From: Verrucomicrobiota bacterium
GTDB taxonomy: Bacteria; Verrucomicrobiota; Verrucomicrobiia; Opitutales; Opitutaceae
NCBI GenBank assembly: GCA_028293545.1
Contig: JAQGOP010000037.1
Span: 1 to 64,000, forward strand
DNA length: 64,000 nucleotides
Reading direction: 5' to 3'
The first letter of the stretch is position 1, and each line of letters begins with the position of its first letter. Below the pieces are notes generated by a model. That model had not been told where the DNA came from, searched no databases, and was given only the letters and a program-made list of their open reading frames with translations. Position numbers and translations under genes: made by a program. Positions 20,192 to 58,051 of the stretch are shown piece after piece.

Positions 20192-20200
20192 CGAGTTTTT

Positions 20201-20311
20201 TTAACCACGAATGGACACGAATGAACACGAATCAGAGTTCCGAAGCTCGGTATTTCCCTCCGGGATTTCGCGGACTCGATCCGGATCTGATTCGTGTGCA
20301 TTCGTGGTTAA
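20201..20311. repeat. Complete CACGAATG-family palindromic element between queC and queE
   Basis: The left arm 20201-20232 contains three spaced copies of CACGAAT(G). The right arm 20290-20311 is the reverse complement of the first 22 bases of the left arm with one mismatch. The 57-bp interior is unrelated to that of the copy at 27.5 kb. It fills the whole gap between queC and queE. Confidence 0.8.
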
Positions 20312-20997
20312 ACGGCTTGGGGTTTGGACGGCAGCGGCTCCAGCGATGCATAAATCGTCGGATCGTTTACTCCCGCCTGCATGAAAGCCTCGCGGCGTTC
20401 GACGCAGGTCCCGCATTTGCCGCAATGAATCGCTCCACCCTTGTAACACGACCACGTGCGCGCGAAATCCACCCCGATGCGCGCTCCCTCCGCGGCGATC
20501 TGGCCCTTGGTCATCGCGATGAAAGGCCGGAGCAACCGCACCTGCGCGTACGTGCCCAGACGCATCGCGTCGCCCATCGCGCGCATGAAATCCTCGCGGC
20601 AATCCGGGTAAATCGCGTGGTCGCCACCATGGGCCGCGATCACGAGGCCCTCCGCCTCCATGCTCTCCGCCAGCCCGCACGCGATCGACAGCATGATCGC
20701 GTTCCGAAACGGCACCACCGTCTGCTTCATATTCGCCGCTTCATAGTGGCCCTCCGGCACCTCGCCCCCGCTCTTCAAAAGATCAGACGCGAATAGCCGG
20801 TTCACGAAATCCAGCGCAATGACCTCATGCCTCACGCCGATCTTCGCCGCGTGCTCCGCCGCGAACGGCAGCTCCCGGTCGTTATGCTTCGCTCCATAGT
20901 TGAAACTTACCACCGCCGCGACCGCATGCGCCTGCCGCGCCCAATAAAGCGCCGTCACGGAATCCATCCCCCCAGAGCAAAGCACCACGACTTTCAT
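20308..20997 (-). CDS. queC: 7-cyano-7-deazaguanine synthase
   Basis: QueC converts 7-carboxy-7-deazaguanine to preQ0 with ATP and ammonia. From the ATG at 20997 it is 229 aa and begins MKVVVLCSGGMDS, the PP-loop. The zinc site CxxCxxC is seen in HCGKCGTCVERREAF near the C-terminus. A longer frame upstream reads through the tail of a CACGAATG repeat and is rejected. Only queC and queE of the pathway are in the window. Confidence 0.95.
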   Translation of the reverse strand: MKVVVLCSGGMDSVTALYWARQAHAVAAVVSFNYGAKHNDRELPFAAEHAAKIGVRHEVIALDFVNRLFASDLLKSGGEVPEGHYEAANMKQTVVPFRNAIMLSIACGLAESMEAEGLVIAAHGGDHAIYPDCREDFMRAMGDAMRLGTYAQVRLLRPFIAMTKGQIAAEGARIGVDFARTWSCYKGGAIHCGKCGTCVERREAFMQAGVNDPTIYASLEPLPSKPQAV

Positions 20998-55109: not shown

Positions 55110-55451
55110 TCAGCCCTTCTTCGGGGGCGCGGGCGGCGGCGGCGGCAGCACCGGGTTGGTCGCCTGCTTCGCGCCGTAACTGCCCTTGCTGGGGAGAAAG
55201 GGCGCGATCTTGTCGACCAAGGGCGTCAGGAACTTGGGCTCGTTGCGCTCGTAGATCCAGTTGATGCCCACCACGGAAAAGACGATCAGCGCGATCACGG
55301 CCATCACGACCTTGTTCGCCCCGGCGACCTTCTGGAGAATGATGACGACGACCACCAACACCAAAACCGCGATGCCCACCTTCCACCAGAATTCGGGCGG
55401 GACATGCTTGATTTTTTCGAGCGTGGTCGGCGCAACGGCAAGAAAGAGCAT
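55110..55451 (-). CDS. Small two-helix membrane protein, unknown
   Basis: The 113-aa protein has two hydrophobic segments (about residues 23-42 and 47-66), then a polar region and a Pro-rich C-terminus ending PPPPPAPPKKG. The N-terminus (MLFLAVAPTTLEKIKHVPPEFWW) could be a weak anchor. It is not recognised and has no motif. It lies between gnd and a 109-bp element, reading toward gnd. Confidence 0.6.
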   Translation of the reverse strand: MLFLAVAPTTLEKIKHVPPEFWWKVGIAVLVLVVVVIILQKVAGANKVVMAVIALIVFSVVGINWIYERNEPKFLTPLVDKIAPFLPSKGSYGAKQATNPVLPPPPPAPPKKG

Positions 55452-55520
55452 GCGGCAGGACTAACAATCGTCGCCGTCGAGACCAGACGAATCCGCCGAA
55501 CCCAGCCGCTCCCGAAGACT

Positions 55521-55629
55521 GGCCGCAAAGAAGCGCAAGTTTCCGGGGCCTCGGATCGAAATCTCCGCGCGCTTATAAGCGCTCCCAAATCTCCTTTGTA
55601 GCCTCGGAAACTTGCGCTTCTTTGCGGCC
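55521..55629 (+). repeat. 109-bp TIR element, copy A
   Basis: The termini are 25-bp perfect inverted repeats starting GGCCGCAAAGAAGCGCAAGT. The interior holds the perfect palindrome GCGCTTATAAGCGC in the centre. Copy B at 57.0 kb is the same element in reverse orientation (98 of 109 bases match after inversion, counted by hand). It has no coding capacity and is intergenic. Confidence 0.85.
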
Positions 55630-55691
55630 AATTCTCCGAGCGGCGGTGCGCCCTGAACATGGCAATTAACAAACCCGCTTTGGGCGGCGGA

Positions 55692-56942
55692 TCAGGACCA
55701 CGGATAAAACGGCGCGACGTATCCGACCGGGAAATCCGTGATCTCCGCGGGCAGTTCGACAAAGCCATCCGTGCCCACCAATCCGCCGAAATCCCCCGAA
55801 GTATTGCTCGGATCCGGCGTCGCCTGGCGCTCACCGAGCGGCCCGCTGCGCAGCTTTACCGGCAGGAGGTAGGCCAGCTTCGGGCGAAAGGTCACGGGGC
55901 AGGCGAGAGCCGCGGTCACAGGCCGGGGCACCGACGCGCCCGAGGCGCCAGCCAGCGCCGGCAGGACATAGCGGTGAAGGCAGGTGTACGACGAAACCGG
56001 ATTTCCCGGCAGCGCGAAAATGGGTTTCCCCTCCGGGCTCACGCCAAACCACATGGGTTTGCCCGGTCGCTGGCCCACGCCATGGAAAATCTTCCTCATG
56101 CCTTGGGCATCCAGTTCCGCCGGCAACAAATCGAATTTTCCCTTCGAAACCCCGCCGCTGATCAGCACCACGTCGAATTCCGCGATGATGTGCCACAGCA
56201 TGTGCTCAAGCTCGTGACGCATGTCGTGCACGTGAAACCTCTCGACCCAAGGGTAGCCGGCGAGGTGCAACGCCGCGCGCAGCGCATGGTCATTGCTCCG
56301 CCGCACTTGGTGCGGCGCCACTGCGTCGCCGACCTCGACCAGCTCGTCGCCCGAAGCGACCACCGCGATCTTCGGTCGCGCACTCACGGTCAGCTGCGTC
56401 GCGCCAATGGCGGCGGCGACGGCAATCTCGCGTCCCGTGATGCGCGTGCCGGCCGGAACGATCAGCTCGCCCTGGCGATGATCGCTGCCTCGGCGGTGCA
56501 CCGATTGGCCGGGCTTCGCCGCGGACGCCGACGCGAGCACCGTCATCTTCCCGTCTTCACTTTTCGTGTCCTCGTAAGGAATCACGCAATCGGCGCCTTC
56601 GGGCAGGACGGCACCGGTCATGACTTCCACGCAGGCATCGGTTGAAGCTCCCAGCTTGAAGGGTCGCATGCCGGCCGCCTGCGTGGCTTCGATGCGAAAC
56701 TCCCGGCGCTGCGCGGACAAATCGGCGGCCCGCAGTGCATAGCCATCCATCGTCACGCGGTCGAAGGGCGGGAGGTCGCGGTCCCCGCGAAGGTCGCTGC
56801 GCAGCACGCGTCCATGAGCATCGGCCAGCGCGCATTCCTCGCTGCCGAAACGCGGCAGCGCCTCGCGGATCAATTTCTCGGCTTCGGCCGGCGTCAGCAT
56901 CGCCGTCAACTTATTGGCCGCGCCAGGTGCGAACTTGCTCAT
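55692..56942 (-). CDS. moeA: Molybdopterin molybdenumtransferase MoeA
   Basis: MoeA inserts molybdate into molybdopterin during molybdenum-cofactor synthesis. The 416-aa product has the domain-III N-terminal region DRDLPPFDRVTMDGYALR, the central MoeA-like fold with VASGDELVEVGD, SGGVSKGKFDLLP and FALPGNPVSS signatures, and a C-terminal beta domain. No other Moco gene or molybdoenzyme is nearby. Two inverted copies of a 109-bp repeat flank it, at 62 bp and 90 bp distance. Confidence 0.94.
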   Translation of the reverse strand: MSKFAPGAANKLTAMLTPAEAEKLIREALPRFGSEECALADAHGRVLRSDLRGDRDLPPFDRVTMDGYALRAADLSAQRREFRIEATQAAGMRPFKLGASTDACVEVMTGAVLPEGADCVIPYEDTKSEDGKMTVLASASAAKPGQSVHRRGSDHRQGELIVPAGTRITGREIAVAAAIGATQLTVSARPKIAVVASGDELVEVGDAVAPHQVRRSNDHALRAALHLAGYPWVERFHVHDMRHELEHMLWHIIAEFDVVLISGGVSKGKFDLLPAELDAQGMRKIFHGVGQRPGKPMWFGVSPEGKPIFALPGNPVSSYTCLHRYVLPALAGASGASVPRPVTAALACPVTFRPKLAYLLPVKLRSGPLGERQATPDPSNTSGDFGGLVGTDGFVELPAEITDFPVGYVAPFYPWS

Positions 56943-57031
56943 CGGTCAGTGGGGGTGGGGCCATCGGATGATTTTTTTCGCAGCGTGGTGCGGACAAAGG
57001 AAAAGACGAGGCTTCTCTCCGCCTGCGAGTT

Positions 57032-57140
57032 GGCCGCAAAAAAGCGCAAGTTTCCGGGGCTGCGAAGGAGATTTGGGAGCGCTTATAAGCGCGCGGAAGT
57101 TTCGATTCGAAGCCGCAGAAACTTGCGCTTTTTTGCGGCC
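57032..57140 (-). repeat. 109-bp TIR element, copy B
   Basis: This is the inverted copy of the element at 55.5 kb, with 23-bp perfect terminal repeats starting GGCCGCAAAAAAGCGCAAGT. Where copy A has G at position 10 paired with C at position 100, copy B has A paired with T. The terminal stem is therefore preserved by a double change. The central GCGCTTATAAGCGC is identical. Confidence 0.85.
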
Positions 57141-57172
57141 AACCTGTTCGAGCCGGCGGCCGCCGGCGCTGC

Positions 57173-58051
57173 TTACAAATACCGGGCGGAGCGGCCGAGG
57201 TAGTTCAGCGTCCAGATTTCCTTCCACACCCGATAGCGGCCCTCGTGCGTGATCTTGCCGAGATCCTCGCGGTCGGAGTGCGAGTGCAGGAAACCCAGCT
57301 CGGTGTTCAATCGATCCAGCTCGTGCTGCGTCGCGTTCAGATCCGTCAGCGGGTCGACCGCGAAGGATACGATCGTGTCCTTGAGGCTCGCGATGCGCGC
57401 CTGATGGCGCTCGAGCAGCTTCGGCAGCGAACGGCACAGCGGCGCGCGTTCCACGAACCAGTTCTCGGGATAAAACCCGGCGAAGGGCACGTAGAGGTTG
57501 TCGGTGACGTACCGGCTGCCGTCGCTCGTGAGCGACGTGATGGCGAAGCAGATCGTGACGGCCCCGCTGGCCTGCGGGATGAACGTGACCTGCACGCGCA
57601 CCGTGCCATCGAGGTTTTGGTAAATGGAAACGCGCAGGTAGATCCCGCCGCCGATCTCGGCCTTCATCGCCTGGACCTGCTTGTAGTTTTGCCCGCGCAG
57701 CCACTCGCGCAGCTGCAGCGCCTTTGGCTGGGTGGGCCACTCGTCACCGACGAGGTTCAGCACATAACGCGGAAACAGCGGCAGCGGGCTCACGCTGAGC
57801 GCATGGATGCTGAGCCAGTTCAGCAGTGTTTCGCCCAGGAACCACAGCAGGAAGAAAAACACGGCAAGCGCCCAGTAGGGCCGGTCAACGAGTTTGAAAT
57901 CGCGGAAAACCTGCGCGGCGCCGAAAGCGAACACCAGCCAGCGCAGCCAGCGGTCCACGATCGAAAGCAGCGGCGAAGCCGCCCGCTGGTTGATCTGGGC
58001 CAGCATGAGCGAAACGAGGATCGCACCAAGGATTAGGTAGGGAATTTCCAC
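57173..58051 (-). CDS. Membrane protein of unknown function upstream of dnaN
   Basis: The 292-aa protein has three N-terminal membrane helices (residues 4-20, 35-52, 60-84), one containing LRWLVFAFGAAQVFRDF. A soluble alpha/beta part follows with RVSIYQNLDGTVRVQVTFIP. The end is helical and coiled-coil-like (LERHQARIASLKDT). It was not recognised. It lies 183 nt downstream of dnaN on the same strand. Confidence 0.65.
   Translation of the reverse strand: MEIPYLILGAILVSLMLAQINQRAASPLLSIVDRWLRWLVFAFGAAQVFRDFKLVDRPYWALAVFFFLLWFLGETLLNWLSIHALSVSPLPLFPRYVLNLVGDEWPTQPKALQLREWLRGQNYKQVQAMKAEIGGGIYLRVSIYQNLDGTVRVQVTFIPQASGAVTICFAITSLTSDGSRYVTDNLYVPFAGFYPENWFVERAPLCRSLPKLLERHQARIASLKDTIVSFAVDPLTDLNATQHELDRLNTELGFLHSHSDREDLGKITHEGRYRVWKEIWTLNYLGRSARYL

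Follow-up and report, generated by a model that had tools for sequence, protein, structure and literature searches.

Palindromic E1 repeats around moeA in an Opitutaceae genome and a candidate partnership with GxxExxY nucleases

The closest described counterparts of the element studied here are the REPINs and their partner RAYT transposases, the latter being encoded by single-copy genes and, it seems, unable to mobilise themselves (Bertels and Rainey 2011, PMC3116915; this and the other papers compared here are cited for the passages that concern such repeats, and what we say of them applies to those passages). We analysed a stretch of 64,000 nucleotides (the window), a contig (C5) of the genome of a Verrucomicrobiota bacterium from the Opitutaceae (G000; 3.96 Mb, 63 contigs, 84% complete), in which two copies of a palindromic element, here termed E1, lie around moeA. 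Like REPINs, E1 copies are inverted-repeat hairpins of ~100 nt, found between genes in many copies, and like RAYT genes the few nuclease genes described below are not amplified and are flanked by the matching repeat (PMC3116915). The differences are that the enzyme is a PD-(D/E)XK nuclease and not an HUH/Y1 enzyme, that E1 carries no GTAG tag, that its arms are long near-perfect palindromes, and that the arrangement of a gene between arms extends to archaea and to many phyla of bacteria, in which the arm sequences vary. The best reading, to which we assign a probability of roughly 0.55, is a partnership resembling that of RAYTs and REPINs in which the PD-(D/E)XK nuclease takes the place of the tyrosine transposase.

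Other described systems share single features with E1. In the TIRYT elements, or TIRtrons (Di Nocera 2013, PMC3733652), transposase genes also lie between long terminal inverted repeats (TIRs), some of which are repeat families in their own right, and some repetitive extragenic palindromic sequences (REPs) described there sit within longer palindromes, as nested E1 copies do; however, the TIRYT enzyme is a tyrosine transposase, the TIRs share the motif GGGGWSAS, and the GxxExxY family is not met in the passages concerned. The intervening sequences (IVSs) of 23S rRNA take the place of a hairpin loop and contain an open reading frame (ORF) for S23p (PMC4990558); they may resemble some of the elements described here in placing a stem-loop where another hairpin had its loop, with one small ORF between the arms, but they lie in rRNA genes and encode S23p, whereas E1 is mostly found between protein genes and its gene-bearing form encodes a PF13366 protein. 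Miniature inverted-repeat transposable elements (MITEs) and Rickettsia palindromic elements are like E1 in size, inverted repeats, absence of an ORF and copy number (review: PMC10969869), although no target-site duplication was found in E1 (a DDE-type parent was not searched for), and the Rickettsia elements are often in frame inside genes, while E1 is mostly between them. The CGTC repeats, some Rickettsia elements included, are said to be without a mobilising enzyme (PMC3733652).

Each ingredient has a known analogue. In the relevant passages of the open-licence PubMed Central literature, PMC8934634 included, we did not find the pairing of GxxExxY nucleases with these repeats or any description of their genes between palindromic arms, nor did we find there a paper on palindromes of the CACAGAGG and CACGAA types; the papers that contain an arm motif concern animals, to judge by their titles. 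Some bacterial palindromic repeat families have no known mobilising enzyme, and a small, widespread nuclease family is found between such arms in bacteria and archaea; because the nuclease lies between the arms and one of its subfamilies is tied to one arm type, the nuclease becomes a candidate for mobilising the repeats, and the repeats for being its substrate.

The E1 family and the moeA locus

An earlier note on this DNA, made from the sequence alone, had described two elements in opposite orientation around moeA, with long terminal inverted repeats and a shared central palindrome GCGCTTATAAGCGC. The coordinates and model matches (Table 1) confirm both the places and the anatomy, perfect pairing extending over 26 nt in either copy. 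The arms of copy A are 30 nt each and 97% complementary, those of copy B 38 nt each and 92% complementary. Folded as DNA, A and B reach z = -10.6 and -9.9, respectively, with none of 200 shuffles equally stable. Over 115 nt, copy A shares 90% identity with inverted copy B; of 113 columns compared, 101 match. On its other side copy A adjoins a 113-aa gene, which is followed by gnd, with dnaN nearby. An Rfam scan of positions 55300-57400 returned no family at its gathering score; the best match, MIR1437 (41.7 bits, gathering score 168), was taken as a chance match to a long hairpin.

Table 1. Positions of E1 copies, their parts and related features (positions refer to the window unless a contig is given)
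Feature	Position	Strand	Basis or remark
E1 copy A	55518-55632	+	between moeA and 113-aa gene next to gnd; model R1 match, 123 bits
Copy A, left arm	55520-55549	+	inverted-repeat comparison
Copy A, right arm	55601-55630	+	inverted-repeat comparison
Copy A, central palindrome GCGCTTATAAGCGC	55569-55582		sequence match
E1 copy B	57029-57143	-	upstream of moeA, orientation opposite to copy A; model R1 match, 133.6 bits
Copy B, one arm	57029-57066	-	inverted-repeat comparison
Copy B, other arm	57106-57143	-	inverted-repeat comparison
Copy B, central palindrome GCGCTTATAAGCGC	57079-57092		sequence match
moeA	55692-56942	-	bystander gene between two insertions; MoeA_N, MoCF_biosynth and MoeA_C domains
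o2-family palindrome (AACCACGAATGGACACGAATGAACACGAATC ... GATTCGTGTGCATTCGTGGTTAAA)	20196-20312		related to E1
E1-armed nuclease element (L128)	C22:21683-22395		open gene of 133 codons between E1-type arms

E1 is an interspersed palindromic family. A BLAST search of the source genome with copy A gave 90 rows on both strands, and a covariance model built from 38 copies gave 123 rows at E<=0.001 (at most 150 candidates were scored for each genome, and counts are of rows on both strands), which represent at least 55 distinct places, a lower bound counted among the matches listed. The 38 aligned copies are 87-97% identical to their consensus. E1 has terminal inverted repeats, a size within 50-500 bp and no ORF, as MITEs do, and like REPINs and REPs it consists of two inverted units forming a hairpin, extragenic and at high copy number. 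Its ends in the alignment are TTGGCCGC / GCGGCCAA, with no GTAG (or CGTC) tag. A set of 49 rows, some of them partial copies, was used for the study of placement (47 of them in the first nesting test, 42 in the trimmed test and 38 in the alignment). According to a crude codon-usage gene caller, 40 of the 49 are clear of called genes, six overlap a called gene end by 9-21 bases, and three (L010, L025 and L077) overlap a called gene over the whole matched stretch. No insertion into an rRNA helix was seen: A and B lie between protein genes, and the neighbours of the other rows are called ORFs (rRNA not being annotated).

Two variants, L077 (G000 C1:5922-6089) and L137 (C61, near 9976), have E1 arms with a different, longer loop that holds other hairpins, which suggests an exchange of arms and loops.

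Matches to the E1 model at E<=0.001 were found in eight of 11 congeners (5-84 rows), in copies diverged from those of the source genome: G003 (84), G008 (81), G005 (68), G009 (44), G007 (35), G006 (14), G002 (8) and G004 (5). Two further genomes, G020 and G012, gave 2 rows and 1 row, and the other eight of the 19 genomes searched, including G001, G010 and G011, gave none at this threshold. Two congener loci (L034 and L049) apparently share a single E1 copy with similar flanks, as judged by eye, hence some copies are inherited.

The order gnd-113-aa gene-moeA is conserved in six congeners (G002, G004-G008), and its 113-aa gene-moeA part also in G001; the moeA search did not include G009-G011, and G003 has no orthologous moeA. 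In none of the seven congeners with the adjoining gene order does an E1 arm lie beside moeA, and a search of these loci with a degenerate arm gave matches only within gnd. Between the matched ends of moeA and the 113-aa gene lie 244 nt in the source genome, 56-100 nt in six congeners and 310 nt in G007, where the spot occupied by copy A holds a different, unrelated palindromic insert (L175; judged by eye). In the moeA loci of the relatives we did not find the gene that lies upstream of moeA in the source genome. The suggestion that the inverted pair could invert or excise the moeA segment is not supported, as the orientation of moeA relative to the gene downstream is unchanged in all seven congeners, and excision is disfavoured further because an inverted pair would invert the segment, not excise it.

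The pairing of the arms was compared within and between species. A paired change at the tip of the stem (G:C in A, A:T in B), from which the earlier note had argued for preservation of the stem, is real, but it is no evidence of compensation by itself, since over 38 copies the position has GC in 12, AT in 11, GT in 6, AC in 8 and a gap in 1 (Fisher p = 0.19). Inside the source genome covariation is weak: 93.1% of cells are paired (92.5% in shuffles, of which 4 in 500 are as high), and a change on both sides is seen in 9 pairs (6.7 in shuffles; 34 of 500). Between species the proposed stem covariation is seen. For 24 copies from seven species, changes on both sides were found in 51 cells, compared to 24.1 in shuffles (0 of 500), and 85.3% of cells pair, compared to 82.9% (0 of 500) and to 38-45% in slid versions, over which the structure has an advantage, as it was folded from one of its own rows. 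In the same set, the number of pairs with a change on both sides (12 vs 10.5; 153 of 500) and the number of further pair types (39 vs 39.1; 286 of 500) are not above shuffles. Because several rows per species are related, this supports, but does not prove, selection or conversion that keeps the arms matched. With at least 55 dispersed places, with the moeA-downstream site free of E1 in seven congeners and with changes on both sides of the arms between species, the earlier note's description of E1 as a dispersed, structured MITE- or REPIN-like element is supported.

Some E1 copies are nested, a feature that, like the nuclease link described below, the earlier note does not mention. In 14 of 47 copies a further inverted repeat is formed by the flanks (score >= 28, the highest score in 940 shuffles being 27), and of 42 copies with trimmed ends 13 sit within another such repeat. 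The commonest outer repeats are o1, CACCACGAAATACACGAAACACACGAAAA (67 overlapping rows in the source genome), and o2, TTTTTAACCGCGAATGGACGCGAATGAACGCGAATCC (71 rows), and the rows of o1 and o2 partly overlap one another. In other places, a short loop, an E1 copy, another palindrome or a gene lies between the outer arms of o1 and o2; those of o2 in the source genome enclose both E1 copies and GxxExxY genes. At two loci (L109 on C46 and L127 on C29 of the source genome) a palindrome of the GAACAGAAGGTAACGAAGG type was seen by eye in the loop of o1 arms.

GxxExxY nuclease genes between palindromic arms

One E1 element of the source genome (L128, Table 1) bears a gene. Its left arm aligns with the inverted right arm over 83 bases, the GCGCTTATAAGCGC core included, and the gene between them matches PF13366 (2.9e-26) and TIGR04256, GxxExxY (4.7e-30), above the curated cut-off, which places its product in the GxxExxY family. 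The protein retains D75, E85 and K87 of the D...ExK motif. There are five PF13366 genes in this genome: one in E1 arms (L128), one in o1 arms, two in o2 arms (one with a stop) and a fifth, on C35, in weaker arms (score 29). E1, o1 and o2 arms also occur there without a nuclease gene. Having E1 termini, L128 would be a candidate autonomous parent in the sense of MITEs, although its product is a PD-(D/E)XK nuclease with at most a putative role in transposition. A model of the relative L215 (pLDDT 94.6) has PD-(D/E)XK nucleases as its best structural neighbours, with Z-scores of 10.1 for 4ic1 (SSO0001), 8.5 for BpuSI, a type IIG enzyme, and 7.6 for Hjc, a Holliday-junction resolvase, the tool's own remark being that Z under 8 may reflect a common arrangement only. 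The top rows of a Foldseek search with the same model are PD-(D/E)XK nucleases as well. From the PF13366 match and the L215 model the gene product is predicted to be a PD-(D/E)XK nuclease with the restriction-endonuclease-like fold. Viral contigs contained no E1-borne nuclease, a PDB sequence search with the nuclease gave no match, PHROGs gave none for the two nucleases tested, and in PADLOC one nuclease out of three had matches, which were weak.

Three congener nucleases are closely related to that of L128 (L299, L305 and L166; scores 352-428 to L128 or L299), all with E1-like arms, whereas 19 other nuclease loci score at most 186. With a profile of these four E1-type nucleases, 28 loci were identified, spread over 25 of 177 genomes from the order, with flanking inverted repeats at 23 of the 27 testable loci (one being too short). 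The E1-type arm motif, allowing <=2 mismatches, is present at 13 of 29 loci of this subfamily and at 0 of 125 other GxxExxY loci, counts that are not phylogenetically independent. Similarity of the proteins and similarity of the arms are correlated between genomes over 42 loci (rho 0.19; as high in 6 of 2000 permutations).

The setting between inverted repeats is common to the GxxExxY family at large. A scan of named bacterial and archaeal genomes confirmed 580 loci, of which the best 80 were analysed; to judge by record titles, they belong to Planctomycetota, Chloroflexota, Bacteroidota, Verrucomicrobiota, Acidobacteriota, Cyanobacteria, archaea and others. An inverted repeat at the gene edges (score >= 30) was found at 51 of 76 loci (four being too short for the test), compared to seven of 711 same-size windows elsewhere in the same loci. 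Among relatives of the source genome, 42 of 51 loci (one of 52 too short) lie between inverted repeats with a score >= 28, and in a set of 33 loci, 23 reach a score >= 30; among 870 mismatched pairs the proportion is 5.9%, and among 26 Y1-transposase loci the number is 10. The arms consist of short periodic units, CRCNRAG-like and mostly 8-10 bp apart: among arms with a score >= 30 and a length <=60 nt, the tandem motif CRCNRA(G/A)..CRCNRA is present in 40 of 44 (0.4% of shuffles), and the best self-match is at a lag of 8-10 in 38 of 44. The motif CACAGAGNNCACAGAG (<=1 mismatch) was found in 11 of 12 named genomes (93, 6, 82, 53, 4, 52, 3, 62, 214, 6, 0 and 2 hits), its reversed version giving 0-1. 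In the two genomes with listed places, many plus hits are succeeded by a minus hit at a distance of no more than tens of bases, too short to accommodate the gene. E1 is best explained as a non-autonomous, lineage-specific member of this widespread superfamily of palindromic repeats, whose gene-bearing members have a small GxxExxY nuclease between the arms and whose gene-less members, A and B among them, consist of arms and a structured core only.

Eleven close pairs of nuclease genes, which share members, were compared: dN/dS is 0.03-0.12 in six and 0.345 in one very close pair. The flanking DNA is alike in nine of the 11 pairs, in eight of them on both sides. Similar flanks and low dN/dS together indicate that the nuclease gene is often inherited in place, under purifying selection.

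A second, unrelated family is found between arms of another style. Of 22 testable PF05635 genes in these genomes (23S rRNA intervening-sequence protein, IVP, a four-helix bundle; eight of 30 being too short), 14 lie between inverted repeats (>= 30), compared to 11.7% of 462 mismatched pairs, and their arms show a strict 7-bp period (13 of 13). These genes are at loci L182-L211, e.g. L191, L194, L196, L200 and L203. We take S23p of the 23S rRNA IVSs to be PF05635. The setting of genes between such arms suggests a link between these repeats and the rRNA intervening sequences.

A nuclease partner and its alternatives

The spread of E1 could be driven by the nuclease as follows. The nuclease would recognise its arms as a cruciform or as a single-stranded hairpin and cut the DNA at or near palindrome loops, whereupon repair from another element would copy the palindrome into the cut. 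It would thus work like a RAYT on REPINs, or like a homing endonuclease with hairpin loops as targets; the nuclease gene would mostly stay put, under selection, while the gene-less palindromes spread. The nesting, the absence of target-site duplications, the periodic arms and the association of gene and arms all fit such a mechanism. On a wider scale we propose, tentatively and with less than even confidence, a pan-prokaryotic class of mobile elements: palindromes with periodic arms and a GxxExxY nuclease of their own, which would cut hairpin or cruciform loops and copy palindromes into them, giving rise to nesting, with the 7-bp-periodic arms and four-helix-bundle (IVP) proteins as a parallel class. 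If so, the rRNA intervening sequences would be one outpost of a general life style of loop insertion.

Several observations weigh against a nuclease-driven spread. No target-site duplication, which the earlier note had proposed to look for, was found in a scan of 42 E1 copies. Mismatched pairs of a left and a right flank pass the trimmed nesting test in 13.5% of cases, and in the first test their scores have a 95th percentile of 55; mismatched flanks pass often because the outer repeats are shared families. The 29 copies with no visible nesting revealed no target palindrome (p = 0.15). Added to these is the weak covariation of the arms inside the source genome. The association of subfamily and arms loosens with <=3 mismatches (16 of 29 vs 7 of 125 loci), and three genomes with 68-84 E1 rows (G003, G005 and G008) have no E1-type nuclease among their PF13366 genes. 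Several GxxExxY genes are at orthologous sites in related species, hence the gene-bearing form is not seen to jump, and dS is saturated in four of the 11 gene pairs, E1-type pairs among them. The Foldseek search with the L215 model gave no match at E <= 0.001 (best E 0.014), and the modelled fold does not appear to reveal the substrate, its neighbours singling out no cruciform-cutting enzyme.

The main alternative, which we consider unlikely but serious, is that the nuclease is a passenger: E1 would owe its spread to processes of the host (template switching, strand slippage or gene conversion between palindromes) or to another enzyme, e.g. a DDE transposase, and the gene, safe in the loops of palindromes, would be retained for a different function, for instance in DNA processing or defence. 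The inheritance of some nuclease genes in place under purifying selection, the three E1-rich genomes devoid of an E1-type nuclease and the weak PADLOC matches agree with this, as does the variety of contents in palindrome loops, including the unrelated PF05635 family between another arm style. A passenger role predicts neither the association of nuclease subfamily with arm type nor the identity of the gene-bearing arms with gene-less repeats of the same genome. As to another enzyme, exact 11-base arm matches form outward pairs at a distance of 300-4000 bp in these cases only: the nuclease element, copies A and B on either side of moeA, and two E1 copies that are neighbours. No transposase-sized E1 element is among them; DDE transposases were not searched for in the source genome.

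It is improbable that E1 is a retained structured element (a terminator, mRNA stabiliser or nucleoid site) maintained at its sites by selection and not spread by mobility. Changes on both sides of the arms across species and the mostly intergenic placement would be expected of such an element, but E1 is absent from the moeA site in relatives, the Rfam scan around moeA gave no family at its gathering score, and there is no preference for convergent sites or gene ends: neighbouring genes of the 49 rows are co-directional in 23 cases (14 '--' and 9 '++'), divergent in 10, convergent in nine and undetermined in seven. A terminator or regulatory role was rejected for lack of any orientation bias over these rows.

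Scarcely probable as well is that E1 is a REPIN or TIR repeat moved by a tyrosine (Y1) transposase, RAYT or TIRYT. The source genome does have three PF01797 matches, yet E1-type arms on both sides were found at 0 of 30 Y1 loci, searched with the arm of the source genome (<=4 errors, which could miss diverged arms of relatives) and then with a degenerate arm; the inverted repeats around the Y1 genes are of other kinds, and the TTGGCCGC end of E1 differs from a GTAG tag. One of the three matches (L097, G000:C14:70870-71112) is a RAYT-like gene for 202 aa amid CGTAGGGCGAGGTCTTGGACCCGCCTCGGGG repeats with a GTAG-like end, apparently a separate GTAG-type REP system in this genome. In congeners, PF01797 proteins of ~330 aa (L082, L084-L089) are encoded between TIRs with GGGGTCAG, as in the description of TIRYTs, and therefore fit that published class. 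At L098 (G009 C23) an E1-like copy, at 313-379, lies ~1.1 kb to one side of a PF01797 gene.

A local duplication around moeA, the alternative raised in the earlier note, would account for an inverted pair 1.4 kb apart but has virtually no credence, because the nearest match of copy A is one on C47 (93%) and that of copy B one on C51 (96%), compared to 90% between them, which marks A and B as independent insertions in a family with copies all over the genome.

Apart from the o2-family palindrome listed in Table 1, a lone o2 half arm is present in the window at 1317-1343.

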